This document shows positions 13,296 through 61,893 of a DNA stretch of 64,000 bases, in pieces; position 1 is the stretch's first letter; every line of letters starts with the position of its first letter. The position numbers were made by a program, and so were the translations under genes. The DNA is from Guyparkeria halophila (GTDB lineage Bacteria; Pseudomonadota; Gammaproteobacteria; Halothiobacillales; Halothiobacillaceae). The notes beneath the pieces were generated by a model. The model was not told the DNA's origin. It searched no databases and saw nothing but the letters and a program-made list of their open reading frames with translations. The stretch lies in NCBI RefSeq assembly GCF_034479635.1, contig NZ_CP140153.1, positions 999,501-1,063,500 on the forward strand. The letters run 5' to 3'.

Positions 13296-13844
13296 TCAGG
13301 TCTTGGTCGGGCGTGGTGCCATCACCATGGTGGCCTGTCGGCCTTCCATGCGAGGCTTTTGCTCGACGGTGGCCAGGTTCGACAGGTCTTCCTCGATGCG
13401 AGAAAGCAATTCGGCACCCAGGTCCCGGTGGGCCATCTCTCGACCGCGGAAGCGCAGGGTGATCTTCACCTTGTCGCCGGCCTCGAGGAAGCGAGTCGCA
13501 TTACGCAGCTTGACCTGGTAGTCGTGATCTTCCGTGCCGGGACGGAATTTCACCTCCTTGATCTCGATATGCTTCTGCTTCTTCTTGGCCTCGGCCGCCT
13601 TCTTGCTCTGCTGATACTTGAACTTGCCGAAGTCCATGATCTTGCAGACAGGCGGCTTGGCTGTAGGCGAGACCTCGACCAGGTCCATCCCGGCCGTGAC
13701 GGCGCGTTCCCTTGCCTCGTCGGTGTCGACAACACCCACCTGCTCGCCGTTTTCGTCGACGAGCCGGACTTCCCGGATGGTGATCTGGTCGTTGATCCGT
13801 GGGTCGTCGCTTTTGGCTGGACCCTTTCCGCGTTGTTGAGCGAT
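13296..13844 (-). CDS. infC: Translation initiation factor IF-3, probable AUC start
   Basis: IF-3 binds the 30S subunit and discriminates start codons. The N-terminal domain [20 protein letters not shown], the lysine-rich linker around [15 protein letters not shown], and the C-terminal [16 protein letters not shown] are typical. No ATG fits the expected N-terminus. A TTG at 13859 opens a longer frame, but it lies directly at the ribosome-binding sequence GGAGGG, whereas an ATC codon at 13844 is placed eight bases after GGAGG and gives a normal 182-residue protein (start read as Met, then AQQRGKG). infC of enteric bacteria starts with the rare AUU, which makes the gene subject to IF-3 autorepression, so AUC here is plausible. 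Confidence 0.95.
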
Positions 13845-13929
13845 GTTCGTACCCTCCAATCAGGTTTGGACGAGAATAGTAACCCAGAGCGACCGGCTCC
13901 GGGAGAATTGGCGAAAAATTAGCATATAA

Positions 13930-14196
13930 GGGAAGGTCTGCACGAATCCGATGCCACTCTGGCCTGGCGAGTCGTTCGTGATCAAGGCGCGATGTCGCCG
14001 GCGTGCCGGCGGCACGTCAAGACATCGCAACGCGGAGCACGGGCGACTCGCCAGGCCCCGCCGGGCGCCCCTTGAGCCGGGCATCTGCTGCGTTGTCGTC
14101 CTTGGAAAGGGAACCACCCTTCCGCGGCGGACGAACGCCTTGCATCTGCCCGGCTCAAGGCGCGCAGAGTGGTATCGGATTCGTGCAGACCTTCCC
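13930..14196. repeat. Full-length dispersed palindromic element A (267 bp)
   Basis: The ends 13930-13961 and 14165-14196 are 32-base inverted repeats with one mismatch (GGGAAGGTCTGCACGAATCC type). Inside are two further hairpins: a perfect 14-bp stem pairing 13961-13974 with 14044-14057, and a 12-bp stem pairing 14071-14082 with 14148-14159. The whole can fold as a three-way junction. It lies between thrS and infC. Its inner sequence differs from the copies at 57356 and 61613, but its architecture and length match. No open reading frame of note is inside. Confidence 0.85.
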
Positions 14197-14258: not shown

Positions 14259-16166
14259 TTAGCGATGCTCGGCGATCTCGCCCTTGAGGCGTTCGATCAA
14301 CTCGTCGACCTTGACCGAGCCAAGATCCTCGCCCGAACGGGTGCGCACGGAAACCGAATCGGCATCGATCTCGCGGTCGCCCGCGACCAGCAGGTAGGGC
14401 ACGCGCTCGAGGGTGTGCTCGCGGATCTTGAAGCCGACCTTCTCGTTGCGCAGGTCGGCCTCTGCCCGCAGGCCGGCCGCCTTGAGGCGTTCGGCGACCG
14501 CATCGACGTATTCGGCGTGCTTGTCGGTGATGCCCATGGTCACGGCCTGGGTCGGGGCGAGCCACAGCGGCATCTGGCCGGCGTGGTGCTCGATCAGGAT
14601 GCCGATGAAGCGTTCCATCGAGCCGACGATCGCGCGGTGCAGCATGACCGGGTGCTTGCGCTCGCTGTGCTCGTCGACGTAGGTCGCGCCCAGGCGCTCG
14701 GGCATCATGAAGTCCACCTGGATGGTGCCCAACTGCCAGGTCCGGCCGATGGCATCCGACAGGTGATATTCGATCTTCGGCCCATAGAAGGCACCTTCGC
14801 CCGGCAGTTCTTCCCATGCGACGTTCGCCGCACGTAACGCGCTGCGCAGGGCTTCTTCGGCCTCGTCCCAGACCTCGTCCGCGCCCATGCGCTTGTCCGG
14901 GCGGGTGGCGATCTTCACCTGCACATCCGAGAAGCCGAAGGTCTCGTAGACCTCGAGCGCTTGGCCGTGGAAGGCGCGCACCTCGGGCTCGATCTGCTTT
15001 TCGGTGCAGAAGATGTGGCCGTCGTCCTGGGTAAACCCGCGCACGCGCAGGATGCCGTGCAGTGCGCCCGAGGGCTCGTTGCGGTGGCAGGAGCCGAACT
15101 CGCCGTAGCGGATCGGCAGGTCACGGTAGGAATGCAGGCCGTGGTTGAACACCTGGACGTGGCCCGGGCAGTTCATCGGCTTGACCGCGTAGGTGCGCTT
15201 CTCCGACTCGGTGAAGAACATGTTCTCCTGGTAGTTGTCCCAGTGGCCGGACTTCTTCCACAGGGACACGTCCAGGATCTGCGGGCACTTGATCTCCGCG
15301 TAGCCCGAGCGCTTGTAAACATCGCGCATGTAGGACTCGATCACCTGCCAGATCGCCCAGCCGCGCGGGTGCCAGAACACCAGGCCCGGCGCCTCGTCCT
15401 GGAAATGGAACAGGTCGAGCTGCTTGCCCAGGCGACGGTGGTCGCGCTTCTCGGCTTCCTCGCGCTGCTTGAGGTAGCGCTTGAGTTCCTTGTCGGAGGC
15501 GAAGGCGGTGCCGTAGACGCGGGTAAGCATCTCGTTGTCGGAATCCCCACGCCAGTAGGCGCCGGCCACCTTCAGGAGCTTGAAGGCCTTGAGCTTGTTG
15601 GTGTGCGGCACGTGCGGGCCGCGGCAGAGATCGGTGAAGTCGCCCTGGGTGTAGATGGAGAGCTCCTGCTCACCCGGGATGTCCTTGATGATCTCGACCT
15701 TGTAGTCCTCGCCCAGGTCCTTGAAGAAACGCACCGCATCGTCGCGTTCCATCACGCGGCGTTCGAGCTCGTCGCCCTCGGTGGCCAGCTCGCGCATGCG
15801 GGTCTCGATCTTCTCCAGGTCCTCGTCGTTGAAGGGCCGGTCGAAGGCGAAGTCGTAGTAGAAGCCCTGGTCGATGACCGGGCCGATGGTGACCTGCGCT
15901 TCCGGGTAGAGCTGCTTGACCGCCTGGGCCATCAGGTGCGCGGTGGAGTGGCGGATGATCTCGACGCCCTCCTGGTCCTTCGCCGTGACGATGGCGATGT
16001 CCGCGTCCTTCTCGACCGTGCGCGACAGATCGACCAGTGTGCCGTCGATCTTGCCGGCCACGGCGGCCTTGGCCAGGCCCGGTCCGATGTCGGATGCGAT
16101 CTCGGCGAGTGAGACGGGGTGATCGAACGTGCGCTGACTGCCGTCGGGTAGCGTGATAGTCGGCAT
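14259..16166 (-). CDS. thrS: Threonyl-tRNA synthetase
   Basis: A 635-residue class II synthetase with the full bacterial domain set: TGS domain at residues 1-60 ([20 protein letters not shown]), editing domain with [16 protein letters not shown] near residue 73, catalytic core with zinc ligands ([13 protein letters not shown] and later [19 protein letters not shown]), and C-terminal anticodon-binding domain. An in-frame GTG upstream would add 34 residues, but the ATG at 16166 has GGAGGG in front and matches the family start. In enteric bacteria thrS represses itself through a tRNA-like leader, which I could not identify here. Confidence 0.98.
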
Positions 16167-16282
16167 GTGCCCTCCTGAGCTGGGATGCCAGTGGCGGGCC
16201 CTACCAAAGCCCGCGTTTGCATCCGTGTGGGTCGAAGGGTGCGGACAGCCGGAACCGTCGTGGCGCACCCGCCATGGTTTTA

Positions 16283-16343
16283 GGGAAACTCTGCACGAAT
16301 ACCAAGCCCCGCCGGGCGGTATGGCATTCGTGCAGCGTTTCCC
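16283..16343. repeat. Short copy of the dispersed palindromic element (61 bp)
   Basis: GGGAAACTCTGCACGAATACC at the left and an imperfect inverse ending GCAGCGTTTCCC at the right leave only about 20 bases between the arms. It appears to be an internally deleted copy of the larger elements. It lies upstream of thrS. Confidence 0.7.
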
Positions 16344-26202: not shown

Positions 26203-29200
26203 TCAGGTGTCGATCTTCAATTGACCGCTGTCGAGCATGTTCTGGATAAGCTCATCCGAGTTGGTCGCGCCATTAAAGTCGCTGAACGACTTGCCTTCCA
26301 TCCGGATCGTCTGGGTTTGCCCGCTGGTGCCGCCATCGTGGCTGACCTGGAACACGAGGTCACTGCCGTCTTCCGTAACGGAAAGGAAGTCGGCGACCGG
26401 CTGCTCGGCCTCGTCAACCAGCAGGTCACGCAGGTCGAGCACGTCGTTGCCGGTGCCGAAGTCGGTGATCACGTCGTTGGCCGGGCTGGTAGCATTCCCT
26501 TGGTCATTCAGCTCCCACTTGAATACGTCGTCGCCAAGCCCGCCAGTGAGGGTGTCGTCCCCCTTGCCGCCGATCAGCACGTCGTCACCGGCATTACCAA
26601 CGAGCTCATCATTTCCCAGTCCGCCGAAGAGGACATCGTCGTTCGCGCTGCCGCTAAGCGCGTCGTTGCCCGTTCCACCAAGGGTATAGGTGGTGGCGTC
26701 GCTGGTGACGTTGCCGTCGGAGTCGGTGGCAACGGCGGTAAGTGCGCCGGTGGCGCCGCTCGCCGGGGAGATGGTCGTGTTCCACGCTCCATCGCCATCA
26801 GCCGTCACGCTATCGACCACTGAGCCGTTGCCATCCGTGATTTCGACCGTTGCTCCTGCCTCGGCACTGCCACTGATTTCGGTTTCGCGAAACCCAACAG
26901 TCGTGTCATCTTGATCGTTGACCGCATAACTTGGGTTGTTGAACCAGCCTCCTTGCTCGATCCCGGTGGAGTCGATGACCAACACCTTCTCCTCTCCATC
27001 GACTGACCCGCGGAAAACCACCAGGTCTCGGCCATCCGGTTGAAGTGAAACCTCGTCGGAGCGCTCGACGGTGCCGAGCATTGTTCTGGTTTCACTGCCA
27101 ATCGGGAATCCCCAGAAGTAAGTGTCTTCAGTCCAGGAGATCTGATATTCGCTGCCGACATCAAATTCGAAGGTGTAACTGCTGTTTTCTGTGGCTTGGA
27201 TAGCAATGTCCCGCGTATTGGAAGTATCCAAACGGTTGCTTCGGATGAACCCACCGGAAACATCGTCTGCGTCTCCAACACCGAAGCTTTCGGTGCCCAA
27301 ACCACCGTCCCAGACTTTTTCGATCACATCATCGGCATCACCGCCGATCTTCCAGGTGATCGATTCAATAGCCACACCCGAGGTGTCGAGCGCGGCGGTA
27401 TCGGTGGCCGTGGCGTCGTTGCCGGCCTGGTCACTCACGGTGGCGGTTACCTCGAGATTGCCGTCGTCGAGGCCACTCAAGTCAGCGGTGGTGCCGTAGC
27501 TGCCATCCGTATCGACGGTAGCGGTGGCGTTGACGGTATCGGTGCCATCGGTGATCGCCAGGGAGACCGCCTGTCCCGCTTCGACGTCGGTGGTGTTGCC
27601 AAAGATCGGCGCGTTGGTGGCATTCGCGGCATCGACGTCGTCGAGGGTGACGGTGATGCCGGCGAGGGTATCGGCCGGCAATGCGGTGGCGGTGGCCTCA
27701 CCGGAGGTGTTGCCTGCCTCGTCTGACAATGAGGCGGTGATGGTGGCCTCGGGTTCGAGGGCGACGGTGATGCCATTGTCGATGTCGTCCTGGCTCAGGA
27801 CGACCGTCTGCTCGGTGCCACCAGTGACCTGGTAGGTGAGGGTGTCACCGACCTCGGAGCCGGCCACCGCGATGGTGGCATTGACCGTCCCGTCTTCACC
27901 GAGCTCGTCGGCGTTGTAGATGCCATCGTCATTGGCATCGGCCGCCTCGATGGCGATGGTCGGGGTGGCGATCTGCGTGTCACGCAGGGCATCGGCCGAG
28001 CCCTCGTCGGAGGTATTGCCGGCCTGATCGGTAATCGTCGCAGTAACTTCCAAGCTTTCGCCTTCGTCGGGTGCCGTCAGTTCGGTGACCACCTCGTCGG
28101 CATTGACCTGTTGCTCGGACAGCGTGATGTCATTGCCATTGACCGTCAGGGTGTCACCCGCCACGGCGTTGGTTTCGCTGAGCCCGATCGTCACGGAGAC
28201 ATTGCCGCCTTCGCTGATTTCATCAGCCGTGATGAATGCGTCACCGTCGGCGATGGTCACGCTCGGGGCATTCGGCGCAGTGGTGTCGAAGGATGCCGGC
28301 ACGGCCGTGTCCGTTTGCGGGGCATCGATCGTGACGGTCACCGACTCGCTTTGCTCGCCCTGGCCATCAGTCACGCTGTAGGTGAACTCGGCCGGGCTGA
28401 AGGTCTTGTAGTCGATGCTGTCGACAAAGTACTCGCTGCTGTCGTTGGACGACCCGCTTGCCTGGTAGCCGTCAGCGTACTCGGTGGCGGTGAAGCGCAG
28501 TTGATCGAAGACGATGCCTTCGGGCAGGCTGAAGCTGCCGTTGTCTCCGCCCGTATTGAAGTCGACCGGCTCACCATTGAGGGCCGCCCCGTCCACGCCA
28601 CTGAAGGTCCAGGCGCCGACCTGCTCACCGTCGAGATAGGCCTCGACCTTGCCTACCTCGCCTTCGTTCTTGATCAGGCGACTGACCCCAACCTCGGCGC
28701 CATGCGCCGGCTCGTCGAAATCCATGACCAGGGTCTGGGACTGGCCATCCCGGTAACCGAGCTGATTGGGGACCTGCTGCTGGAGGTTGTTGTCGCTGTC
28801 GTCACTGACGCCGACACCGTTCCCCTGGAAATTCAGCAGCGTGTTGTCCTGCTCGCCGTCGTAGCCGTAGGCATACAGAGACAGCCCCGAATCAGCGCTC
28901 GGCGCCTGGCTCAAGTCGACGGTGACCTCGGCACTGGCCGTTCCGTCGTCCATCCAGTAGAACGTGGAGGCATCGGAAAACTCGTTCCCTTGCTGTGCCG
29001 GCGCGAAGGTGCCGTCGCCGTCAACGTCGATGAAGAGCGTTCCGATGACGGGAACCGAGTCCAGCGTAAAGTTCAGTTCGTCGAGGGGCGTTTCTGCATC
29101 ATTGCCTCCCAGCGTGGCTGACGGTTCTGCGTTATCGCCATCGACCGTGCCGTCCACCGAAAACTGTTTGAACAGCAACGGGTTCCCGGACACGCTCTCC

Positions 29201-30690
29201 GGGAGCACGCTTTCCGCCCCGAAGATCTCCGCTGACGTCGATACGGGATCGGCGACAGGGGGAGTGTTCACTGCATACTCGCGCTCGGCCTCGGCAGAGA
29301 ACGGATTGCCGGCCTCGTCGGTGCCGGAAACACTGGCATCGACTTGGCTGTTGTCGGCGAGCAAGCTGCCCGGGACGTCGATGGCGTAGTTGCCGTCGCC
29401 GTCGACCTCGCCGGTTCGGGTCTCGCTGCCGATGGTCAGGGTGACGGTGTCGCCCTCGGTGGCATCACCACCGACCGAGCCGGTGATGGTGATGTTGCCG
29501 TCGGCTTCCTCGCCGTTGATCACGTCGTCACCGGCGATGGTGTCGATGCTGATGGTGGCGCCGGCCTCGGTGTCGACGCCGTATTCCCGGTCGGTGTCGG
29601 CAGAGAACGGATTGCCGGCCTCGTCGGTGCCGGAAACACTGGCATCGACTTGGCTGTTGTCAGTGAGCACGCTGCCCGGGACGTCGATGGCGTAGTTGCC
29701 GTCGCCGTCGACCTCGCCGGTTCGGGTCTCGCTGCCGATGGTCAGGGTGACGGTGTCGCCCTCGGTGGCATCACCACCGACCGAGCCGGTGATGGTGATG
29801 TTGCCGTCGGCTTCCTCGCCGTTGATCACGTCGTCACCAGCGATGGTGTCGATGCTGATCTCGGCGCCCGCGAAGGTGTCGACCTGGTAGGGGCGGGTGG
29901 CAGAAGCGCTGTAGGGGTTGCCGGCATCGTCGCTACCGGAAACGGACGCCTGCACCAGACCGCCTTCCGGTACGGGCAGTGGGAAATCGCCGTTGCCAAA
30001 GTCAGGGTTCTGGCCTTCCCGGAAATCCGGGTTCTGAAACTCGGGCGGCAAGTCGATGAATCCGCCGCTGGCCAGGAGGCTGCCCGGTACGTCGATTGCG
30101 TAGTTGTTGTCGCCGTCGACAGTGCCGCTGAAGGACTGCCCCCAGATGGTCAGGGTGACGGTGTCACCTTCGCTGGCGTCGCCGCCGACGGAACCGGTGA
30201 TAGTGATGGTCTCGCCGGATTCCTCTTCATTGATCACGTCATCGCCCGCAATGGTATCGATGGTGATCGTGGCCTCGGCCTGGGTGTCGAGGATGGCCGT
30301 GTCGGTGTCGGTCGCCTGGTTGCCGGCTTCGTCGCTCACGGTGGCCGTGGCGGTGAGCTCCCCGTCGGAAAGCGAGCTCAGGTCCTCGACGACCTGGTAG
30401 CTGCCGTCGGCTTGAACGATGGCGCTGGTGCTGACGGTGCTCTCGCCGTCGCTCACCTCGATGGAGACGGTCTGGCCGGCAGCGACGTTGGTCGTGCTGC
30501 CGGAAATCAGACTTTCGGTGACGCTCAGGCCATTCTGGTCGTCCAGGTTGACGGTGATGGCCGGGGTGGTCTCGGTCTGTTCGGCGGCGAGGCCGTTCAC
30601 GCCCGGGATCGGCTCGTTCGGTTCACGCGCGGGGCCGGCGAAGTCGAATGCCAACGGGTCGATCTGCTCGACGATCCGGCTGACTTCCAC
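26203..30690 (-). CDS. LapA-like RTX adhesin, main body (frame-shifted from its N-terminus)
   Basis: A 1495-residue frame opening at a GTG (VEVSRIVEQIDPLAFDFAG). It carries a string of Ig-like or cadherin-like repeats of about 90-102 residues; two adjacent copies are nearly identical with a 306-base period at 29295-29900. After these come a VCBS-like central part and a C-terminal RTX block (GGLGNDELVGNAGDDVLIGG) that ends in a typical type I secretion tail. The protein is very acidic. The region just upstream in another frame (30597-31064) holds the retention module that belongs at its N-terminus, so this frame is almost certainly the continuation of that gene after a one-base deletion near 30698-30706. 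Family: large surface adhesins exported by LapBCE and cut by LapG. Confidence 0.9.
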   Translation of the reverse strand: MEVSRIVEQIDPLAFDFAGPAREPNEPIPGVNGLAAEQTETTPAITVNLDDQNGLSVTESLISGSTTNVAAGQTVSIEVSDGESTVSTSAIVQADGSYQVVEDLSSLSDGELTATATVSDEAGNQATDTDTAILDTQAEATITIDTIAGDDVINEEESGETITITGSVGGDASEGDTVTLTIWGQSFSGTVDGDNNYAIDVPGSLLASGGFIDLPPEFQNPDFREGQNPDFGNGDFPLPVPEGGLVQASVSGSDDAGNPYSASATRPYQVDTFAGAEISIDTIAGDDVINGEEADGNITITGSVGGDATEGDTVTLTIGSETRTGEVDGDGNYAIDVPGSVLTDNSQVDASVSGTDEAGNPFSADTDREYGVDTEAGATISIDTIAGDDVINGEEADGNITITGSVGGDATEGDTVTLTIGSETRTGEVDGDGNYAIDVPGSLLADNSQVDASVSGTDEAGNPFSAEAEREYAVNTPPVADPVSTSAEIFGAESVLPESVSGNPLLFKQFSVDGTVDGDNAEPSATLGGNDAETPLDELNFTLDSVPVIGTLFIDVDGDGTFAPAQQGNEFSDASTFYWMDDGTASAEVTVDLSQAPSADSGLSLYAYGYDGEQDNTLLNFQGNGVGVSDDSDNNLQQQVPNQLGYRDGQSQTLVMDFDEPAHGAEVGVSRLIKNEGEVGKVEAYLDGEQVGAWTFSGVDGAALNGEPVDFNTGGDNGSFSLPEGIVFDQLRFTATEYADGYQASGSSNDSSEYFVDSIDYKTFSPAEFTYSVTDGQGEQSESVTVTIDAPQTDTAVPASFDTTAPNAPSVTIADGDAFITADEISEGGNVSVTIGLSETNAVAGDTLTVNGNDITLSEQQVNADEVVTELTAPDEGESLEVTATITDQAGNTSDEGSADALRDTQIATPTIAIEAADANDDGIYNADELGEDGTVNATIAVAGSEVGDTLTYQVTGGTEQTVVLSQDDIDNGITVALEPEATITASLSDEAGNTSGEATATALPADTLAGITVTLDDVDAANATNAPIFGNTTDVEAGQAVSLAITDGTDTVNATATVDTDGSYGTTADLSGLDDGNLEVTATVSDQAGNDATATDTAALDTSGVAIESITWKIGGDADDVIEKVWDGGLGTESFGVGDADDVSGGFIRSNRLDTSNTRDIAIQATENSSYTFEFDVGSEYQISWTEDTYFWGFPIGSETRTMLGTVERSDEVSLQPDGRDLVVFRGSVDGEEKVLVIDSTGIEQGGWFNNPSYAVNDQDDTTVGFRETEISGSAEAGATVEITDGNGSVVDSVTADGDGAWNTTISPASGATGALTAVATDSDGNVTSDATTYTLGGTGNDALSGSANDDVLFGGLGNDELVGNAGDDVLIGGKGDDTLTGGLGDDVFKWELNDQGNATSPANDVITDFGTGNDVLDLRDLLVDEAEQPVADFLSVTEDGSDLVFQVSHDGGTSGQTQTIRMEGKSFSDFNGATNSDELIQNMLDSGQLKIDT

Positions 30691-35363: not shown

Positions 35364-35662
35364 AGATCCACACAAAGTATGAACAGTGAACCAAGAACAT
35401 GGCCACGCGCCTAGATTTGCCTGCGTCCCTTGTCGTTGAACGTAAGGTCGATCGCTGCTGACATCTACCGCGGCACGTGTCGCGTCAATTTCGATGAGCC
35501 AGGCTTCTGTGTGCTCAATCTCGGGCAGGAGATCGATTCCGTCGCGTTCCGACAATTGATGGTGGACCTCAAGCGTGCAATGGCCGCGATTCCCGAATCC
35601 ACCACCGGCAATACGCTGGCGTATCGTTCTGCCACACGCTTCGATCAACAAGAAACAACTGA
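35364..35662 (+). pseudogene. Truncated 5' copy of the unknown gene at 54247-54969
   Basis: This stretch aligns base for base with roughly 54231-54540 at high identity. In the frame starting at the ATG matching 54247, a TAG stop appears at codon 12, though a shared TTG codon later (35430) restores an open frame through FDQQETT. After 35662 the similarity ends abruptly and the rest of the gene is missing. The right flank of the fragment is the transposase unit at 35683, which probably removed the 3' part. Confidence 0.8.
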
Positions 35663-37448: not shown

Positions 37449-38027
37449 ATGAGTGGGCTGTATGCACTTGCACTGATCGGTGGCTGGCTGGCAGTCAGCT
37501 GGTTTCTGGTTTGGTCATGGAAGATAACGCGGCCGTTCACGACCTGGCCTCGGCGCATTCATCTCGTTTTTGGCTTTCTGGTGTTGGGCAGCTGGTTTGC
37601 CTGGAGCTTCTGGGAGGCAGAGGGGCGGAAGTTGTACTGGGATTATCAGGTTTGGCAGATGTGTCAGGAAGATGGCGGAGTTAAGGTTTTCGAGAAGGTG
37701 GCCTTGGAGCCTGCTGATTATGATCGATATGAAGATAACGGCTGGTTTTTCCCTAATAAGGAAAATATGAATCCCGGAGAGAGATTTTATACGGAAGTTC
37801 GTGTTAATTATTATCGAAAAAAAATCCCCAAAGTATCTCGGCAAACATATCTTATCCTTGCTGAGCGAAATGGTTCCAGAAAGGTTTTGGGGGAATATGT
37901 GAGTTATGCGAGGAGTGGTGGGGGTGTATCGGGACCTTGGCATGAGTCAACGTTCCACTGTCCTCCGTTGATGAGGTCGGGGCCTGGATTGGCTGGCGCG
38001 ATATTTAGAAAAGGAGATTCGAAATGA
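37449..38027 (+). CDS. Two-helix membrane protein of unknown function, coupled to the RTX lipase gene
   Basis: A 192-residue protein, family not recognised. Two membrane helices are evident at about residues 3-20 (GLYALALIGGWLAVSWFL) and 37-56, followed by a hydrophilic domain of about 130 residues rich in Trp and Tyr (WQMCQEDGGVKVFEKVAL, FYTEVRVNYYRKKIPKV). The topology would leave the C-terminal domain on one side of the inner membrane. Its stop overlaps the RTX gene start by four bases (ATGA), which strongly suggests joint function, for example in cargo protection or export. The GC content of the second half is clearly lower than in neighbouring chromosomal genes. Confidence 0.75.
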   Translation: MSGLYALALIGGWLAVSWFLVWSWKITRPFTTWPRRIHLVFGFLVLGSWFAWSFWEAEGRKLYWDYQVWQMCQEDGGVKVFEKVALEPADYDRYEDNGWFFPNKENMNPGERFYTEVRVNYYRKKIPKVSRQTYLILAERNGSRKVLGEYVSYARSGGGVSGPWHESTFHCPPLMRSGPGLAGAIFRKGDSK

Positions 38028-41000
38028 CTGAGTTTGACGAGCTGTACCTGAAGTCTGAGATGAGTTTGGCCGCGTATGCCACTTTTAGTATAGATATGTC
38101 GCCAGAAGACTATATCAGGTCATTGGAAAACGGGGGCGAAGGCCTGTCTACTACTCAGGCAGTAGAATTCGCTTCACGGTGGAAAGTGGCGGCACAGTTT
38201 AACGATGAGTTAACAGCGGGGCAGCTGGAATTAGGACTGGGAACTGGCTTGTCGGTCACAATATTCGAGGACCGGCAGACCGGTGAGCAGGTGTTGGCGA
38301 TCCGGGGGACGGATGATCTCCAGGACGTGTTTACCGACCTGGTGGATGTTTCGTTACTAGGCAGCGGGGCACTCATGCCTCAGTACGAAGCATTGACCGA
38401 TAAAGTGCAGGATTGGCTGGATGCCGGAATTCTGCAACCCGGTTTTTCGGTGACCGGCCATTCGCTGGGCGGCTTTCTTGCTCAACTGTTAACCGTCGAC
38501 CGTTCGGACGTTGTCTCCGGAGCCGATACGTTTAATGCACCGGGTGTAGGCGGAACTGTTGATGAGCTCTTGGAGCAGTTCGGCCGTACTCAGGACTCGG
38601 TTGATTTGTCCCTGATCCGAAATCATCAGGCTGCTCCGGGCTACGAGCTGACGAGCGGGCTGGGGACGATGCTTGGCGAGGTTGACCCGATATTCGTTGA
38701 GGAATCGGAAAGTCCTTGGGAAAACCATTCAATGAGTCGAATTTCCGATTCGCTTGCCGTGCAAAAAGTGTTCGCAATAGTGGATCCAAGCGCATCGATG
38801 GACGAGATATCTGAGGTGCTTTTGGCAAGTGCGCCCGCGGCAAATGCGCGTTTGGAATCGGCGGTTGCATCGCTGGGTCGGCTATTCGGTGAGTCGTTTT
38901 CATCCGAAACGCAAGGGCGGGATTCCTTGTACGAAAATCTCGACGCCTTGAGCTCTGATTTGGAGGGTCGATCCGGACCTTCCCTGTCATTGGTTTCATT
39001 TGCCGGCAATAGTGCTGGTGAGTTGCTGTCACTGGCTTCTGGTGATATTGCCTACCGGTATGCCCTCGCAAACGGTGATGCTTTCGCAGTGCTTGGCGAC
39101 GACAGCCTTTTTGCCATGCACAACATGTCCGGTGAACTGGATATGTATGACGCCGCGACGGGCGAGGGGCGGCTCACTGATGACTGGCTTTCGGACCGGG
39201 CGGCTTTCGTGGAGGCCCGTACCGAAACCGCTAACGGGAACACCCCGGTAGGGGACGAGCGGATCGAATACCACGATCTTGGCTTGGGGCAGTTGGCGTT
39301 TGTGGATAAGGCGGGAGCTGGTGCCTCTCGACGGATCGTGTTTGGCAGCGAAGGCGCCGATCTCTTGGATCAGGGCGGAGCGGCTGTCGATCACCTGTAT
39401 GGCGGTGACGGCAACGACCTGCTCGAAGGCGCCGGCGGCGCCGACCGGCTGGAGGGCGGCCACGGTTACGACACCTACCTGGCCGGTGCCGACGACACCA
39501 TCCTCGACACCGACCGGGACGGCCGGGTGCGTTTCAGCGACCGGATCTTAAGCGGCGGACGTCGACAGGACGACGGCAGCTACATCAGCGCCGACGGCCA
39601 GATCGTCTACGAGTGGTCCACGGCCGACTCGACTCTTGCCGTCACGGGGCCGGAGGGCAGTCTGATCATCGAGAACTTTCGCGACTCCGGTGATCTGGGC
39701 ATCGTGCTTGACGAGGCACCGGCCGACCCCGGCGAACCGGGCAGCGAATCGAACGTGATTCTCGGCGATTTCGCTCCCATGGTGGATGCCAACGGCAATC
39801 CGGAATATGACCAATGGGGGAATATCGTTCCTGATGGTCCGGAACCGGGGCGTGAAGACACCATCTACGACACCCCGGACGAGGATCTGATCGATTCCGG
39901 GGGAGGGGATGACTGGCTGGCTCGGCTTCACGGGGGTGACGACGTCGTGAAACTGGGCGATGGTGATGACGAGATCCGTACGAACGTCGGCGTCTCCGGC
40001 ACCCTGCACGCCGAGGGTGGCGCTGGAAGGGACTACATCGGAGCCTGGACCGCAGATGACGTGCTGATTGGCGGCGCGGATGGCGATGGCCTTTACGGAG
40101 CGTCGGGGGATGACTGGCTCTTTGGCGACGAGCGCCCTGCCGGTGGTGTCGTCGACTGGATCGCGGCCGGGGCCGAGGAAGAGGGCTCCGGGGAGAAAGG
40201 TGACTGGTTCGACGCGGAAGATGGCAATGACCACGTTCTTGGTGGGCCGGGCGACGATCTGGCGGCGGGTGGCAATGGCAACGACACCATTGTGCTTGGC
40301 GGCGGGGACGACTGGGCGCACGGCGACCTGAACACCTATTTCGAGGGCGGTGATCCTTGGAGGGACTGGCGGGTCAACGAGACCATCGTCGACGCGGGTG
40401 GGTTGACGCAGTATCAGTGGTCTCTGGAAAACATCCGCATTCAAGGTGATCCGGGCGTCGGCAACGATACGATTTACATGGGCGCGGGAGACGACGTCGC
40501 GATCGGCGGCAAGGGCGACGATTACATCGATCTCGGAACCGGAAACGATCGGGGCTTCGGCGAGGGGGGGCATGATGTCTTGATCGGCGGTGCCGGTGAT
40601 GACCGATTGATCGGCGACATGAAAGATGACGCGTCGGATGCGAGTGGTCATGGCAACGACATTCTCGATGGCGGTGCCGGCGACGATCGTCTTCAGGGTG
40701 ATGGTGGCCACGATATTCTTCTGGGCGGCTCAGGCAATGACATCCTGGCTGGAGACACCACGGAAGAACATTTCGGAGACGACCAGCTCGACGGCGGATT
40801 GGGCGACGACGAACTCTACGGGGGTGGCGGCAATGACGTCCTGAGTGGTGGAGATGGTGCCGATAGCCTATGGGGTGACGGTGCGATGGCCTCGGATGAT
40901 CACCAGGGAGATGATCACCTTGACGGTGGTGAAGGCAACGACCTTCTGGTCGGTGGTGGCGGTTCCGATGCGCTGCTCGGGGGCGATGGCGACGATGAGC

Positions 41001-44000
41001 TATACGGAGAGGCGGGTGACACACCCGCATCCGCGCAGGGCGACGACCGCCTCGAAGGCGGAGAAGGCAACGATCTGCTGGTCGGCGGTGGTGGCGACGA
41101 TTACCTCCTGGGGGGTGAAGGCGACGATCAACTCGGCGGTGATATGAACGATACGCCGGTCGACGCCTTGGGCGACGACTACCTCGATGGCGGTGCCGGC
41201 AACGATGTGCTTAACGGTGTTGGGGGCAACGACACCCTCGTCGGGGGGCTGGGTGCCGACCAGCTGTTTGGGGATGCCGGTGATCTCGATGGCTCCCTGC
41301 ATGGCGCTGACTGGCTGGAAGGTGGCGAAGGAAACGACACGCTGGTCGGCATGGGCGGACAGGATGTGTTGTATGGCGACGCCGGCGACGACATTCTTCT
41401 GGGTGATCATGACAGCGTCGATCCCGCCTATTACGGCAATGACACGCTTCACGGCGGCGATGGCAATGACCAAATGCAGGGTGGTGGCCTTGACGACACG
41501 CTATATGGCGAAGCCGGTGATGACTTTATTGAGGGCGACAGTGGTGGCATAACTGGCGCCGAACACGGCAATGACCAGTTGTATGGTGGAGCGGGGAACG
41601 ACCAGCTGATTGGCGAAGGGGGAGACGATCACCTCGTGGGAGGAGCGGGGAACGACCTGCTCGGTGGCGACGCTGACAACATGGCCCCGTCGTTTCATGG
41701 CAACGACATCCTCGAAGGTGGGGCCGGCGACGATCACCTTAAGGGACAAGGAGGCGATGATCGCCTGTTCGGCGGAATCGGTAACGACCAGTTGTTCGGC
41801 GGTGCAGGTGATGACGTCCTGACTGGTGGTGATGGTGTCAATTACCTGAATGGCGGGGTCGGCGACGACTTCCTTGAGGGTGGATCTGGTGACGACGAGC
41901 TTCATGGCAATGCCGGTGCGGACCAACTTGAAGGGGGTGCTGGGAACGACCACTTGTCTGGTGGTGCCGGTGATGACCGATTGGTTGGAGGGGGTGGCGA
42001 CGACCACTATGTGTATTTCAGCGGCCAGGGCGCTGACGTCATCGACAATGCCGATGGCGGCTTCGACCGTTTGGATTTTGGCGACATCACCCTGGATCGT
42101 CTGAGCTTTAGCCAGGAGGGCGACGATCTGCTGGTTCTCGTGGACGGCGACTCGGGTCAGTCAGTACGCGTGCTGAATCATTTCCTTGGTGGTGACGCGG
42201 CGATCGATTCCATCCAGGTGGGCGATGGAGAAGCGCTTGATACGCAGCGCGTCAACGCGATGGCAGCTGCTGCGGCCCTGGATGGTTTCACTGCCGCGTT
42301 GGCGGGCGCATCGGGAGACGATATCCTGACCGGGTACGAAACGACCGATCTGCTTCATGGGCTAGGTGGTGATGACGAGCTACACGGGCTGGCCGGATCG
42401 GATCAGCTCGAAGGTGGGGTAGGGCATGACCGACTGCACGGCGGTGAGGGCGACGACCGGTTGATCGGTGGTTCAGGTGACGACAGCTACGCATATGCCA
42501 GTGGGCAAGGTGTCGATGTTATCGACAACGTCGGTGGCGGCTTCGACCGTTTGGATTTTGGCGACATCACCCTGGATCGTCTGAGCTTTAGCCAGGAGGG
42601 CGACGATCTGCTGGTTCTCGTGGACGGCGACTCGGGTCAGTCAGTACGCGTGCTGAATCATTTCCTTGGTGGTGACGCGGCGATCGATTCCATCCAGGTG
42701 GGCGATGGAGAAGCGCTTGATACGCAGCGCGTCAACGCGATGGCAGCTGCTGCGGCCCTGGATGGTTTCACTGCCGCGTTGGCGGGCGCATCGGGAGACG
42801 ACATCCTGACCGGGTACGAAACGACCGATCTGCTTCATGGGCTAGGTGGTGATGACGAGCTACACGGGCTGGCCGGATCGGATCAGCTCGAAGGTGGGGT
42901 AGGGCATGACCGACTGCACGGCGGTGAGGGCGACGACCGGTTGATCGGTGGTTCAGGTGACGACAGCTACGCATATGCCAGTGGGCAAGGTGTCGATGTT
43001 ATCGACAACGTCGGTGGCGGCTTCGACCGTTTGGATTTTGGCGACATCACCCTGGATCGTCTGAGCTTTAGCCAGGAGGACGACGATCTGCTGGTTCTCG
43101 TGGACGGCGACTCGGGTCAGTCAGTACGCGTGCTGAATCATTTCCTTGGTGGTGACGCGGCGATCGATTCCATCCAGGTAGGCGATGGAGAAGCGCTTGA
43201 TACGCAGCGCGTCAACGCGATGGCAGCTGCTGCGGCCCTGGATGGTTTCACTGCCGCGTTGGCGGGCGCATCGGGAGACGACATCCTGACCGGGTACGAA
43301 ACGACCGATCTGCTTCATGGGCTAGGTGGTGATGACGAGCTACACGGGCTGGCCGGATCGGATCAGCTCGAAGGTGGGGTAGGGCATGACCGACTGCACG
43401 GCGGTGAGGGCGACGACCGGTTGATCGGTGGTTCAGGTGACGACAGCTACGCATATGCCAGTGGGCAAGGTGTCGATGTTATCGACAACGTCGGTGGCGG
43501 CTTCGACCGTTTGGATTTTGGCGACATCACCCTGGATCGTCTGAGCTTTAGCCAGGAGGACGACGATCTGCTGGTTCTCGTGGACGGCGACTCGGGTCAG
43601 TCAGTACGCGTGCTGAATCATTTCCTTGGTGGTGACGCGGCGATCGATTCCATCCAGGTAGGCGATGGAGAAGCGCTTGATACGCAGCGCGTCAACGCGA
43701 TGGCGGTGGCACCGGATGAATTCGATGCTGTCTTGATCGGTACGTCGAGCGACGATGTTTTGAACGGATATAGCACGTCGGATCTGCTTCAAGGCGGTGA
43801 AGGCGACGACACTATTTCTGGGCACTCTGGCGCGGACAAGCTTCAAGGCGGTGCTGGAAATGATTCCCTGCATGGGGGTGATGACGGCGATCAACTCTAC
43901 GGTGGCGCGGGAGATGATCAGTTACATGGCGATGCTGGTAATGATGACCTGTATGGGGAAGCTGGTGCGGACGTCCTGTTCGGTGGAGCGGGCAATGATC

Positions 44001-47000
44001 GCTTTTTTAGTTATGACGGAAAGGACCTTGCCTATGGTGGTGAGGGTGATGATAGTTATTACACAGTTACGGCACATGAAAGTGCTGGCGAAGGAATAGA
44101 CAGCATCTACAGTGGGCATTTGCGTTCGCTTCCGGATAACGTTGAGAATTTATATATGAATTATGGGGATCGGTACAATCCGATCTACTCCTATACAGTT
44201 CAAGGGAATGATCTTGATAACATCATAGGAACTTCAGGTCGTGGGATAGTTGGAGATGTCTTTGATCCTGGCGGGGGTGCAGATAAGATTATCGTGAATG
44301 GTCTTGATGAGCCGGTGGTCTATGTGGACAATCCCGGTGATCAAATCGTCGGTGATTTTCACGAAGTTCGTAGTGAGTTGGATTATCATCTTCCTGATGA
44401 CCGGTTTTATTCCCGCGTAAATAATCGGCTGACTCTTGTTGGTTCTGATCCAATATCTGGATGGGGTAATTCTGGAGATAACGTAATAAAAAGCCATCGG
44501 AATTATGCGAACAACGTGCTCTTTGGGGGCGATGGAGATGACACGTATGTGGTTGGTCTTAGCGACCAGGTTGTTGAGTCAGAGAATTCCGGTTTCGATA
44601 AGGCTTACGTGATGTTGGATGTCGGTCCAAACAAGACCGAGAGCTATGACATAAGCTTGGCTGATTTGAATTTCCAGGGTGTTGAGGCGATTGGCTTCGC
44701 AACGGTTATTACATATGGTGTCTTCACATCTTCTGATGTTGAATTTACATTCAGGGGTGGGGGTGACGATGACATTATACTCCTAAATGAGTTGAACGTC
44801 CTTGCTCCTGGAAATCAGGACTTCAACCCGCCAACACATGTATACGCAGGCGATGGCGATGATCGCATCACAGGAAGTCGAGGCTTGGATATTATTGATG
44901 GCGGTGAAGGGGCCGACTATATGTATGGAGGGGCGCACTCTGATACCTACTATGTCGATGATGTTGGTGATCAGGTTGTCGAAAGTGTATCTGTAACGGA
45001 CCCCCTCTCCAGGGTTTGGGATTACAATCGTCGTCTTGGATCTAGTCTTTCTGGCGGATATGATCGGATACATTCTACAGTCGATTATGAGCTTCCCGAT
45101 AATGTGGAGGAGCTCATATTGAGTGGTTCGGATGAAATCAGTGGTGTAGGAAATGATCAAGACAATGTGTTGACGGGTAATTCGGCTAATAACCTTTTGA
45201 AGGGCGGTCTTGGTGACGACACGTACGTCTACCAGGAGGCTGGAGGCGAAGACACGGTTGATAACCGTGATGGCGGATCGGGAAAGTTGATTTTAGAAGA
45301 AATATCCTTGAATCGTGTCGATTTGGGTCGGGATGGAAACGATTTAGTGATCGTTGTTGATGGTTCGAGTCAGCTCAATCAGTCGGTACGGGTTCTCGAT
45401 CATTTCCTGGGCGATGATGCCATGATCGATATCTTCAAGTTTGGCCACTCGACGATCGATGCAGAGCACGTCGCCGCCATTGTCGCGGCCAACGAATATC
45501 CAGGGGAGTTCTCCACAGTCGTTGTGGGCACAGAAGAGGATGATTCCCTGACCGCTTACCAAACCAGTGATCTGCTGCAGGGGTTGGATGGGAACGACGC
45601 GCTTTGGGGATCCGCTGGTTCCGACCGCCTTGAAGGCGGCTCTGGCGACGACACACTTTATGGTGGCGACGGGCTTGACCGCGGGTCGGGCTCCGATGTG
45701 TTGTTCGGTGGTCTCGGTAACGATGAATTGTACGGCGAGGACGGTGACGACGCGTTGGCCGGGGGTGCCGGTAACGACGACTATTACTATTCCGCCAACG
45801 GTGGTGTCGACGTCATCGATAACACTGGTGGCGGCACGGATACGGTCTTCTTCCTCGGCGGCATCGATCGTTCGCGGATCACGTTCCATCAGGATGGCGA
45901 CGATCTCGTGATGCTTCTGGACGACGACCTGGGCCAGCAGGTGCGCGTCACGAACCATTTCCTCGGCGGTGACGCGGCGATCAGCTATGTCCAGCCCACT
46001 GACTGTGGCAACGCCATCGCTGCGGGGGACATCGCCAGCCAGCTGACGGCGCTCCCGGGGAGTTCGGGCGGTGATTCGGGTGGCGATGCCGGCGGTGGTG
46101 ACACGACCACTCCGCCCCCGGGCGATGGTGGTGACACCCCGCCGACCGCCGAGACGGGCGGCGCGGATACCGTGGTCGGCACCTCAGGTAACGATGTTCT
46201 GCTGGGTGGTGCCGATAACGACACGCTCGACGGCCAGGGAGGCGACGATTTGCTCCGTGGCGGGGTCGGTGACGACACCTACCGCTTTGGTGGCGGCGGG
46301 CAGGCTGTGTTGCAGGAAGCCGACGGGAACGACACCTTGCTGTTCACCGACGGGATTGGCTTCAACAGTGTTTCCTCCGGCTTGATGAAGTCGGGTGATG
46401 ATCTGGTGCTGAAAGTCGATGGTGGTCCGGATCAGGTGACGCTCTCGGGCTTTTTCCGTGGTGGCAGCGACGTGGTCGAGACCATCAGCTTCGAGAGCGG
46501 CGGTTCGCTGACGTCGGATCAGATCTTCGGTGCTTTCGGCCTGCCGGTGCCTGATGGTTCGTCGCCTTATGCCGGTACCGTTGAAGGGACCAACGGTGAT
46601 GATGCATCGGTGCAGGGAACGGCCGATGCCGATCGCCTGGTCGGGCTTAACGGCAACGACACGCTCGAAGGCGGCGCTGGCAATGATCTGTTGATCGGTG
46701 GCCGCGGCGATGACACCTACGTGTTCAATGCGGGCGATGGGCAGGACCGGATCGACAACACCGGGGGCGGTTCGGATACGTTGCAATTCGCCGATGCCGG
46801 CTTCAACGACGTTGCCAGCGGCCTGATGAAGTCCGGGGATGATCTCGTTCTCCAGGTCGGCTCGGGTGGCGACAAGGTGACCATCGGCGCGTTCTTCCAG
46901 GGCGGAGATCATGCGATCGATTCGTTGGCGTTTGCCGATGGTTCACAGCTGAGCAAGGCACAGATCTTCGGGGCCTTCGGGCTGACCGATCCCGACCCGG

Positions 47001-47557
47001 ACGGGTCGCCCGATTACACGGGCCTTCCGGACGAGCGAGCCTACGGCACCGTGCAGTCGGCGCGTTCTGGCAGCGAGACGATCATCGGTTCGTCCGATGC
47101 CGATCTGATCGATGGTGGCGCTGGTAACGATGTGTTGGACGGCGGTCTGGGTGATGACTGGCTGATCGGCGGTCGTGGCGACGACCAGTTCCTGCAGACG
47201 CGGGGCGGTGGCGCCGATTCGATTACGGCTTACGATCCCACGGCCGGCAAGACGGATGTGCTCAGTTTCGGACCCGACGTTGCGCACGATCAGCTCTGGT
47301 TCGAGCAGAGCGGGGATGATCTCGCCGTGGGAATTATTGGCACCGACGACAGTGCGACCATCAGCGGTTGGTATCTGGGTGAGGCGCATCACGTCGAGCA
47401 GATCCAGACGGCGGACGGATACACCTTGCTCGACTCGCAGGTCGACAACCTCGTGTCCGCAATGGCGTCGTTTGCCCCGCCCTCCGCTGGCGAGACGGTA
47501 CTTTCTACCGCTTACCGGGATGCCTTGCAGCCGACGATCAGTGCCAGCTGGCAGTAA
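38024..47557 (+). CDS. Giant RTX protein with N-terminal lipase-like domain (3177 aa)
   Basis: The first ~260 residues form a class 3 lipase-like alpha/beta hydrolase: the nucleophile elbow is GHSLGG with Ser147, an oxyanion-type segment LAIRGTDD sits near residue 91, and the later ENHSMSRIS may supply the His. From about residue 440 onward there are many RTX nonapeptides (GGxGNDxL type) that bind calcium outside the cell. Residues about 1346-1892 consist of three near-identical 160-residue repeats plus a partial fourth. Residues about 1893-2510 are encoded by lower-GC DNA with a different repeat style (DDTYYVDDVGDQVVES). The last ~150 residues form a type I secretion tail. There is no signal peptide. 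The following ABC and HlyD genes are its evident exporter. It may be a secreted lipase or phospholipase, or a surface adhesin. Confidence 0.92.
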   Translation: MTEFDELYLKSEMSLAAYATFSIDMSPEDYIRSLENGGEGLSTTQAVEFASRWKVAAQFNDELTAGQLELGLGTGLSVTIFEDRQTGEQVLAIRGTDDLQDVFTDLVDVSLLGSGALMPQYEALTDKVQDWLDAGILQPGFSVTGHSLGGFLAQLLTVDRSDVVSGADTFNAPGVGGTVDELLEQFGRTQDSVDLSLIRNHQAAPGYELTSGLGTMLGEVDPIFVEESESPWENHSMSRISDSLAVQKVFAIVDPSASMDEISEVLLASAPAANARLESAVASLGRLFGESFSSETQGRDSLYENLDALSSDLEGRSGPSLSLVSFAGNSAGELLSLASGDIAYRYALANGDAFAVLGDDSLFAMHNMSGELDMYDAATGEGRLTDDWLSDRAAFVEARTETANGNTPVGDERIEYHDLGLGQLAFVDKAGAGASRRIVFGSEGADLLDQGGAAVDHLYGGDGNDLLEGAGGADRLEGGHGYDTYLAGADDTILDTDRDGRVRFSDRILSGGRRQDDGSYISADGQIVYEWSTADSTLAVTGPEGSLIIENFRDSGDLGIVLDEAPADPGEPGSESNVILGDFAPMVDANGNPEYDQWGNIVPDGPEPGREDTIYDTPDEDLIDSGGGDDWLARLHGGDDVVKLGDGDDEIRTNVGVSGTLHAEGGAGRDYIGAWTADDVLIGGADGDGLYGASGDDWLFGDERPAGGVVDWIAAGAEEEGSGEKGDWFDAEDGNDHVLGGPGDDLAAGGNGNDTIVLGGGDDWAHGDLNTYFEGGDPWRDWRVNETIVDAGGLTQYQWSLENIRIQGDPGVGNDTIYMGAGDDVAIGGKGDDYIDLGTGNDRGFGEGGHDVLIGGAGDDRLIGDMKDDASDASGHGNDILDGGAGDDRLQGDGGHDILLGGSGNDILAGDTTEEHFGDDQLDGGLGDDELYGGGGNDVLSGGDGADSLWGDGAMASDDHQGDDHLDGGEGNDLLVGGGGSDALLGGDGDDELYGEAGDTPASAQGDDRLEGGEGNDLLVGGGGDDYLLGGEGDDQLGGDMNDTPVDALGDDYLDGGAGNDVLNGVGGNDTLVGGLGADQLFGDAGDLDGSLHGADWLEGGEGNDTLVGMGGQDVLYGDAGDDILLGDHDSVDPAYYGNDTLHGGDGNDQMQGGGLDDTLYGEAGDDFIEGDSGGITGAEHGNDQLYGGAGNDQLIGEGGDDHLVGGAGNDLLGGDADNMAPSFHGNDILEGGAGDDHLKGQGGDDRLFGGIGNDQLFGGAGDDVLTGGDGVNYLNGGVGDDFLEGGSGDDELHGNAGADQLEGGAGNDHLSGGAGDDRLVGGGGDDHYVYFSGQGADVIDNADGGFDRLDFGDITLDRLSFSQEGDDLLVLVDGDSGQSVRVLNHFLGGDAAIDSIQVGDGEALDTQRVNAMAAAAALDGFTAALAGASGDDILTGYETTDLLHGLGGDDELHGLAGSDQLEGGVGHDRLHGGEGDDRLIGGSGDDSYAYASGQGVDVIDNVGGGFDRLDFGDITLDRLSFSQEGDDLLVLVDGDSGQSVRVLNHFLGGDAAIDSIQVGDGEALDTQRVNAMAAAAALDGFTAALAGASGDDILTGYETTDLLHGLGGDDELHGLAGSDQLEGGVGHDRLHGGEGDDRLIGGSGDDSYAYASGQGVDVIDNVGGGFDRLDFGDITLDRLSFSQEDDDLLVLVDGDSGQSVRVLNHFLGGDAAIDSIQVGDGEALDTQRVNAMAAAAALDGFTAALAGASGDDILTGYETTDLLHGLGGDDELHGLAGSDQLEGGVGHDRLHGGEGDDRLIGGSGDDSYAYASGQGVDVIDNVGGGFDRLDFGDITLDRLSFSQEDDDLLVLVDGDSGQSVRVLNHFLGGDAAIDSIQVGDGEALDTQRVNAMAVAPDEFDAVLIGTSSDDVLNGYSTSDLLQGGEGDDTISGHSGADKLQGGAGNDSLHGGDDGDQLYGGAGDDQLHGDAGNDDLYGEAGADVLFGGAGNDRFFSYDGKDLAYGGEGDDSYYTVTAHESAGEGIDSIYSGHLRSLPDNVENLYMNYGDRYNPIYSYTVQGNDLDNIIGTSGRGIVGDVFDPGGGADKIIVNGLDEPVVYVDNPGDQIVGDFHEVRSELDYHLPDDRFYSRVNNRLTLVGSDPISGWGNSGDNVIKSHRNYANNVLFGGDGDDTYVVGLSDQVVESENSGFDKAYVMLDVGPNKTESYDISLADLNFQGVEAIGFATVITYGVFTSSDVEFTFRGGGDDDIILLNELNVLAPGNQDFNPPTHVYAGDGDDRITGSRGLDIIDGGEGADYMYGGAHSDTYYVDDVGDQVVESVSVTDPLSRVWDYNRRLGSSLSGGYDRIHSTVDYELPDNVEELILSGSDEISGVGNDQDNVLTGNSANNLLKGGLGDDTYVYQEAGGEDTVDNRDGGSGKLILEEISLNRVDLGRDGNDLVIVVDGSSQLNQSVRVLDHFLGDDAMIDIFKFGHSTIDAEHVAAIVAANEYPGEFSTVVVGTEEDDSLTAYQTSDLLQGLDGNDALWGSAGSDRLEGGSGDDTLYGGDGLDRGSGSDVLFGGLGNDELYGEDGDDALAGGAGNDDYYYSANGGVDVIDNTGGGTDTVFFLGGIDRSRITFHQDGDDLVMLLDDDLGQQVRVTNHFLGGDAAISYVQPTDCGNAIAAGDIASQLTALPGSSGGDSGGDAGGGDTTTPPPGDGGDTPPTAETGGADTVVGTSGNDVLLGGADNDTLDGQGGDDLLRGGVGDDTYRFGGGGQAVLQEADGNDTLLFTDGIGFNSVSSGLMKSGDDLVLKVDGGPDQVTLSGFFRGGSDVVETISFESGGSLTSDQIFGAFGLPVPDGSSPYAGTVEGTNGDDASVQGTADADRLVGLNGNDTLEGGAGNDLLIGGRGDDTYVFNAGDGQDRIDNTGGGSDTLQFADAGFNDVASGLMKSGDDLVLQVGSGGDKVTIGAFFQGGDHAIDSLAFADGSQLSKAQIFGAFGLTDPDPDGSPDYTGLPDERAYGTVQSARSGSETIIGSSDADLIDGGAGNDVLDGGLGDDWLIGGRGDDQFLQTRGGGADSITAYDPTAGKTDVLSFGPDVAHDQLWFEQSGDDLAVGIIGTDDSATISGWYLGEAHHVEQIQTADGYTLLDSQVDNLVSAMASFAPPSAGETVLSTAYRDALQPTISASWQ
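42061..43703 (+). repeat. Tandem 480-bp coding repeats inside the RTX gene
   Basis: Copies run 42061-42540, 42541-43020 and 43021-43500, followed by a partial copy to about 43703. The period is exactly 480 bases (160 codons). I see only a few substitutions between copies, for example GGG/GGA at 42600/43080 and GTG/GTA at 42699/43179. The encoded unit begins FDRLDFGDITLDRLSF and ends in a GSGDDSYAYASGQGVDVIDN block. Confidence 0.95.
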
Positions 47558-54969: not shown

Positions 54970-55029
54970 GGTGGCGGCCACCGACACGTCAAAAAGGGCG
55001 CATCACCGTGGCATCAACGCCCACCCCCG

Positions 55030-57259: not shown

Positions 57260-57355
57260 GGGTTCAATCTCGGTTTCTCGATGGGTCGCCGTGTCCTTTC
57301 GGCAACCCTGGTGCGCTATTTGACGTGAGAAGGTGGCCAGCAAGCCCATTTGCTG

Positions 57356-57623
57356 GGGAAACTCTGCACGAGTCGATAGCGTCTCTGCGGAACCGCCAAG
57401 GGTCCAGATGCAAGGCGCCGTTCACCGTGAAGGACCGTCGCCCTTTACAAGGACGGCAATGCCGCAGATGGGCCCTTGGCGGCCCGCCCGAATCGGGCTT
57501 GCGGGTTTGCCCGCACTCGGCGTTGCCGTCCCTTGACGGGCAATGAGCCCGCCTTCGGTCCGGCGCCTTGGTTGCGGACAAACCCGCAAGCCAGAGATGC
57601 TATCGAATCGTGCAGAGTTTCCC
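57356..57623. repeat. Full-length dispersed palindromic element B (268 bp)
   Basis: The ends 57356-57387 and 57592-57623 are 32-base inverted repeats with two mismatches. Internal hairpins are a 10-bp stem (57393-57402 with 57473-57482) and a perfect 13-bp stem GCTTGCGGGTTTG/CAAACCCGCAAGC (57497-57509 with 57579-57591). The interior is clearly related to element C at 61613. It lies between the rhodanese and ferredoxin genes. Confidence 0.9.
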
Positions 57624-61881: not shown

Positions 61882-61893
61882 TAGCTCATGATT

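Follow-up and report, generated by a model that had tools for sequence, protein, structure and literature searches.

The three repeats A, B and C of the window are likely to be non-autonomous MITEs of IS5-group type, which insert at YTAR-like sites with a 4-bp duplication; their mobilisation by a transposase of that group is inferred. Each carries, inside its ends, two inverted copies of an arm of about 92 nt, and the arm defines a superfamily of MITEs with unrelated terminal inverted repeats (TIRs) in Gammaproteobacteria (Burkholderiales and Neisseriales among them) and in one or more other classes of Pseudomonadota. The stems of the arm covary and its mispairs are asymmetric between the strands, while what the arms do is inferred. 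Taken as a whole, the explanation we consider likely is that of IS5-type MITEs with a superfamily arm acting as a single-strand fold, a role as RNA being the main alternative.

Elements A, B and C and their family in Guyparkeria

The window is a 64-kb stretch (G000:C1:999501-1063500) of a complete 2.45-Mb Guyparkeria genome, G000. A, B and C were confirmed as real repeats of 265-267 bp (the 4-bp target left out) with 32-bp inverted ends and two inner hairpins. Element A (13931-14195, minus strand) is a two-arm element of subfamily 2 with an ortholog in locus L158, and is flanked by the 4-mers TAAG and CGAG, an imperfect duplication. Its left and right TIRs (13930-13961 on the plus strand and 14165-14196 on the minus strand, 32 nt each) are 97% complementary. 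Arm 1 of A (13963-14054) is motif-forward on the plus strand and arm 2 (14069-14162) on the minus strand; they scored 75.3 bits (E 7e-19) and 67.3 bits (E 1.4e-16), respectively, with the covariance model R1 described below. A sits in the gap between thrS (14259-16268) and infC (13296-13859), both on the minus strand.

Element B (57357-57622, plus strand), also two-armed, has an ortholog (L282) in genome G002 and a perfect 4-bp duplication, CTGG (57353-57356 and 57623-57626); its neighbours are a gene for a rhodanese-domain protein on one side and fdxA on the other. The TIRs of B (57356-57387 and 57592-57623) are 94% complementary, and its arms lie at 57391-57483 (plus strand; 65.6 bits, E 4e-16) and 57499-57590 (minus strand; 67.7 bits, E 1e-16). 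The two-arm element C (61614-61880, plus strand) is bounded by a perfect CTAG duplication (61610-61613 and 61881-61884), with TIRs of 35 nt (61610-61644 and 61850-61884; 94% complementary) and arms at 61648-61740 (plus strand; 71 bits, E 1e-17) and 61756-61848 (minus strand; 66 bits, E 3e-16). Two smaller pieces of the family were also found in the window: a 59-bp zero-arm form consisting of two TIRs back to back (16284-16342), flanked by TTAG and CCAG, and a solo TIR remnant (63055-63080, minus strand) terminating in CTAG.

Folded as DNA, the elements gave z-scores of -13.2 (A), -12.1 (B) and -10.4 (C), and none of 200 shuffles folded equally well. The original prediction, made from sequence alone, had described three structured repeats with 32-base inverted ends and two internal hairpins that can fold as three-way junctions. 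The repeats, with their sequences and positions, the inverted ends and the hairpins all held; the three-way junction is the minimum-energy fold of A and C, whereas the fold of B rearranges; the covariance model places two arms in each of the three. The compensated differences it had pointed out (GCTTGCGGG versus GCTGGCGGG, and the end arms GG/AA-C/CC) are present in the sequence, and the variable TIR dinucleotide agrees between both ends in 97 of 112 full-length copies. Its statement that A has a different interior had to be corrected: A aligns end to end with B and C at about 66-76%, and is the same structure in reverse orientation, belonging to a second subfamily. A search of Rfam 15 at gathering and permissive thresholds gave no match above gathering and nothing convincing; an origin from a 4.5S RNA-like sequence was without Rfam support.

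About 40 recognisable copies of the family are present in G000 (64 matches with C as query, 63 with A). Many of the matches span the full length (262-276 bp), and the family also includes forms with one arm (about 160-200 bp) and forms reduced to the ends (57-94 bp). The TIR end pattern occurs 55 times in G000 and 7-109 times in nine of ten other Guyparkeria genomes, the only one without it being a 64%-complete genome, and was not found in the reversed control. The family is thus short, without coding capacity, bounded by terminal inverted repeats and dispersed in many copies, as is expected of MITEs. Non-orthologous copies within one genome are at most 95-98% identical; therefore, the last movements were not very recent, and recent movement is not shown here.

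Target sites, empty sites and the IS5 group

The option that these repeats are MITEs is supported by copy number, 4-bp YTAR duplications, empty sites and IS5-type elements with matching ends elsewhere; family membership, target duplications and empty sites are all shown. The 4-mers on either side of 183 extracted elements give the consensus YTAR, most often as CTAG, and left and right are identical in 46, compared with 15 in shuffles (maximum 24). Joining the flanks of an element gave sequences that occur without interruption in sister species, the 4-bp target being present once (for example L298/L180, L092/L226, L249/L235 and L268, L303 and L305/L238). Some of these alignments are noisy (the L007/L092 flank is itself repetitive) and only gap-free junctions were relied on. 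A synteny-wide comparison of 264 kb with 200 kb was uninformative as gene order differs, and joined flanks within loci were used instead.

A transposase with matching ends was found outside the genus. Acidovorax (L124) and Xylophilus (L100) carry insertion sequences of 1.18 kb which have the same TIR and encode a DUF772 + DDE_Tnp_1 transposase, and that in L124 has CTAG on either side. The 16-bp TIR core GGGAANNTCTGCACGA and the CTAG target are thus common to the A-C family and these insertion sequences; the ends, the target and the transposase together define the IS5 group. No match to PF01609 or PF05598 was found in G000 (other DDE families were not covered), so that an IS5-type helper was not identified there, and the ten other genomes of the genus yielded only one PF01609 gene and one DUF772 fragment, neither with the family ends. 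The PF01609 gene of G002 (L217) was rejected as helper because its ends differ (GGCGCTAAGTTAAGC), as was the DUF772 sequence, only a fragment, in G004. In our proposal A, B and C would be mobilised in trans, the transposase genes responsible being absent from G000 or since lost from it. The autonomous Acidovorax and Xylophilus elements carry no arm, as judged by a search with the arm model; therefore, the arm is not required for IS5 transposition as such.

A covarying arm in MITEs with unrelated ends

Scale, a common arm module and a link to Correia elements go beyond what the original prediction had seen. Comparison of the elements with a 163-bp element of Acidovorax (L062, L085, L108 and others) and a 284-bp element of Thiomicrorhabdus (L075) revealed that each hairpin is a conserved module, CAAGGCG-N36..41-GCAACGCNG (the second motif also written GCAACGC), whose spacing from the end of the element is constant. 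The exact pattern CAAGGCGN{36,41}GCAACGCNG was found in 115 of the 369 genomes of Gammaproteobacteria, a single genome having as many as 90 copies; by our count, 60 have at least three, and the reversed control never exceeded two. Outside this class, two genomes of a different class of Pseudomonadota (family f190) have 16-26 occurrences. In the other lineages, too, the arm belongs to elements with either one arm (about 160-170 bp) or two (about 263-281 bp), the ends of which differ completely (CTAGGGCCTGTTAACAC, CTAGTACTCTATCAAGG, TAGTGTAGTGTTTCA, TATACCCGTCACGG, TTAACCCGGCAAC and others), and genome G377 has the arm inside two different end types. Near a relative of the IS5 element in G035 (transposase 47% identical) lies GGAACCTCTGATTAAT, the end type of the element in L347, which suggests that ends follow local transposases. 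A MITE is usually pictured as a deleted insertion sequence with free filler; here, conversely, one component is conserved and the ends to which the transposase binds change.

Individual loci gave further detail. The two elements of G377 (L496:381-540 and 1158-1420) have differing ends and the same arm type and lie 0.6 kb apart, the second apparently within a transporter-like reading frame. Besides its 163-bp one-arm family, Acidovorax has a two-arm element with another end type, TAGTGCAGTGGTTCACG (L085:4653-4849).

Covariation was assessed in 53 arms from lineages other than Guyparkeria and Neisseria, aligned by sequence only. The arm consists of an outer stem, a GCG/CGC clamp and two inner stems. 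Paired cells amount to 85.3%, compared with 54.5% in shuffles; two-sided changes number 664 versus 229, and the covariation score is 0.744 versus 0.193 in shuffles and 0.13-0.19 when the structure was slid. Since the arms had been preselected for a complementary outer stem, the unbiased evidence is that of the two inner stems, which are paired at 80% and 85%. R1, the covariance model built from these 53 arms, picked out all six arms of A, B and C in the 64-kb window and nothing else (about 66-75 bits, E 4e-16 to 7e-19), and 185 arms in 98 Guyparkeria loci; arms of Correia elements, Acidovorax and Thiomicrorhabdus were also found. Its highest score in viral contigs chosen because they contain the motif by chance (479 kb) was 17.5 bits. 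The motif had been learned from Guyparkeria, so that the motif match is circular; the stem pairing is not. Covariation of the arm stems is therefore shown, and the claim that structure is maintained is supported by its strength across genera. The prediction would have failed had the arm matches arisen only by inversion-type gene conversion without conserved interior hairpins. This was tested and fails for the inner hairpins: they are conserved and covary across dozens of genera, and inversion cannot explain them.

The mispairs tell which form of the arm is selected. Read in the motif direction, the 53 arms have 153 G.T versus 52 A.C, 115 G.A versus 41 C.T and 44 G.G versus 13 C.C mispairs, and tandem G.A pairs are found at the base of the conserved internal loop. 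The Guyparkeria arms gave 360 G.T versus 108 A.C, 319 G.A versus 34 C.T and 71 G.G versus 6 C.C; these events are not independent and the alignment was fitted to the model, so that the set of 53 is the better evidence. As a control, the TIRs of the same elements are symmetric (G.T 114 versus A.C 124). Strand asymmetry of the arm mispairs is thus shown and, as it is confined to the arms, we conclude that selection acts on one single strand, ssDNA or RNA. A symmetric double-stranded DNA cruciform, with which the two counts of each such pair should be equal, was rejected as the selected form of the arms by the G.T/A.C asymmetry and the TIR control. The original choice between DNA for transposition and RNA is accordingly supported overall, with the selected form being an ssDNA or RNA strand.

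Motif-pattern matches in viral contigs were due to chance, except for one 107-bp one-arm element (L396), which matches at least 40 places in an N. gonorrhoeae chromosome and led to Correia elements. Since the 1980s Correia elements have counted as an orphan Neisseria repeat that lacks known relatives. They have been reported only from Neisseria, with the mobilising mechanism undetermined (PMC2649163). The published Correia search patterns (TATAG[CT]GGATTAAATTTAAATCAGGAC and similar; PMC2649163) are present at the ends of the 107-bp element, and R1, built without Neisseria, matches this element in N. gonorrhoeae (L546:20008-20101) with 47 bits (E 1.7e-10). Further matches are 22 bits for another of these arms and 28 bits in Conchiformibius, and the exact arm occurs 8 times in G482. 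PLSDB lists L546 (NZ_CP119140), a complete chromosome of N. gonorrhoeae, as a plasmid. Searches of plasmids and phages with C and a Correia-like element returned only Neisseriaceae records.

Correia elements (CREE / NEMIS) are thus one-arm members of the arm superfamily, the module being their core; they share inverted ends, zero-arm-like forms of 69-73 bp and an unknown mobiliser (PMC2649163) with the A-C family. They differ from it in a TA target instead of the 4-bp YTAR, a different TIR, an arm stem continuous with the TIR, the presence of one arm only, and a long form extended by about 50 bp and an IHF site. A-C have neither the Correia ends TATAG[CT]GGATT nor the TA target, having ends GGGAANNTCTGCACGA and a 4-bp target, and are therefore relatives and not members. 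With the Correia core in a superfamily present in at least 60 of 369 sampled Gammaproteobacteria genomes, their origin, spread and mechanism become testable in harmless hosts. No description of the superfamily was found in the open-licence literature searched. MITEs as a kind are known; the superfamily, the single-strand arm and the placing of Correia elements are new as far as could be checked.

Evolution in place, role of the arm and comparison with known systems

Orthologous copies with both flanks in common exist in several species, and the element is inverted relative to its flanks in 4 of 12 orthologous groups. Inversion in place is thus shown, and has also been reported for Correia elements (reference in PMC10969869). 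It is explained by recombination or strand switching between the TIRs, which may also explain the matched ends, and of the features predicted could account for those ends only. The loci inverted with unchanged flanks are L005 versus L214/L291, L212 versus L007/L092/L259, L089 versus L249/L288, and L200 versus L202.

Among changed pairs in orthologous arms, 34 are broken, 24 are kept by one change and only 4 are compensated. Settled copies therefore mostly decay, and moving copies must be the source of the strong covariation between families. Elements diverge by about 6% between orthologs and their 300-bp flanks mostly by about 8-19%, a few by less; simple neutral decay does not explain this low divergence, to which detection bias possibly contributes. 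Stems and loops both diverge by 6.3% with the consensus structure (6.4% versus 10.7% with the arm model), and a slower change of stems than loops in place, seen when the structure was derived from one of the sequences under comparison, was an artefact of that choice. At one orthologous site in four genomes the element measures 176 bp (L012), 165 bp (L309), 337 bp (L155) and 336 bp (L317), and whole arms seem to have been gained or lost there in place.

We infer that the arm functions while folded as a single strand in the element's own life cycle, and that it serves the element and not the host. Its most likely form would be ssDNA hairpins exposed during replication or transposition. A protein would bind the conserved CAAGGCG/GCAACGC internal loop; such a factor, if any, should be identifiable biochemically by its binding of this loop as single strand. 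With two inverted arms, whichever strand is exposed would have one correctly oriented arm on it. As autonomous IS5 elements lack the arm, it would be an advantage for non-autonomous copies, which might use it to attract a factor of replication or repair or to present their ends, and because settled copies decay, selection would act mainly on copies that move. A bolder reading, which we hold to be a little more doubtful than probable, is that the arm is an unrecognised structured module, ssDNA or RNA, read by an unknown, widely conserved factor; it would have been acquired or kept by MITEs with unrelated ends and different transposases in at least two classes of Pseudomonadota, and would be the core of Correia elements and of dozens of unnamed families.

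It remains possible, though less likely, that the arms act as RNA, the arm folding in a transcript that enters the element and controlling RNase III processing, polarity or termination, so that insertions in operons would be less costly. In favour of this, only one strand tolerates G.T and tandem G.A pairs, transcription into a two-arm element encounters a motif-forward arm first whichever side it comes from, the site of A is within the thrS-infC gene pair, and Correia RNA is bound or cut by RNase III (PMC2649163). Against this, the orientation of one-arm elements is not biased towards the sense strand of the genes beside them (for Correia, 3 sense, 4 antisense and 7 mixed; for Acidovorax, 1 sense and 3 antisense). 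This test, which was small and based on rough gene calls, gave no support to a cis-acting or anti-polarity role on host transcripts. Moreover, two-arm elements lie between co-directional genes less often than expected (68 of 131, versus 33 of 44 gene pairs in the window), 40 of them lie in divergent pairs, Correia RNase III cutting is at the end repeats and not shown at the arm, and pairing is not kept in settled copies.

Two other explanations account for part of the data. Were the paired changes a functionless by-product of mutation, template switching in an imperfect palindrome, or TIR inversion, would copy one half onto the other. Template switching is known for quasipalindromes, and the inversion at 4 of 12 orthologous sites and the TIR dinucleotide matched in 97 of 112 copies agree with such a process. 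However, it cannot yield a conserved non-complementary motif at fixed spacing across many genera, nor strand-asymmetric mispairs, and broken pairs exceed compensated ones 34 to 4 in settled copies; we regard it as very unlikely for the arms, and still a good account of the matched TIRs. Less remote, but also unlikely, is a mobile or recombinogenic hairpin like a REP unit or attC site, entering different MITEs via a tyrosine-type or other ssDNA recombinase. It would fit the occurrence of one arm type alongside many unrelated TIRs, two kinds of which can be present in a single genome (L496), the zero-, one- and two-arm forms in one family, orthologs differing in size (L012/L155/L309/L317) and the ssDNA-type mispair asymmetry. 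However, no arm was noticed outside TIR-bounded elements, the arm stands at a fixed distance from the element end, and no enzyme was identified.

Among known systems, IS5-group insertion sequences and their MITEs (YTAR/CTAG target) share the TIR core GGGAANNTCTGCACGA and CTAG with A-C through the Acidovorax and Xylophilus elements, but the autonomous elements are armless and other lineages of the superfamily have other TIRs. REP/REPIN sequences with RAYT are likewise short intergenic palindromic repeats with a conserved ssDNA-like hairpin motif; REPs are shorter, without long TIRs or target duplication, and have a GTAG-type motif. CIR of Caulobacter and Brucella and other two-arm intergenic repeats also have two stem-loop arms (PMC2229807), but CIR is described without end-to-end pairing, whereas in A-C a 32-bp TIR stem closes a three-way junction.

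The window also contains repeats of other kinds. A gene at 38024-47557 (plus strand) encodes a 3177-aa protein with 30 RTX calcium-binding repeat stretches (PF00353) and has near-identical 480-bp internal repeats at 42346, 42826 and 43306; another at 26203-30690 (minus strand) encodes a 1495-aa protein with bacterial Ig-like domains and RTX repeats and has 306-bp tandem repeats (29264 and 29570). Two repeat pairs unrelated to the arm elements were found at 35377-35659 and 54245-54527 (283 nt, 91% identity) and at 53752-53921 and 55029-55198 (170 nt, 84% identity).
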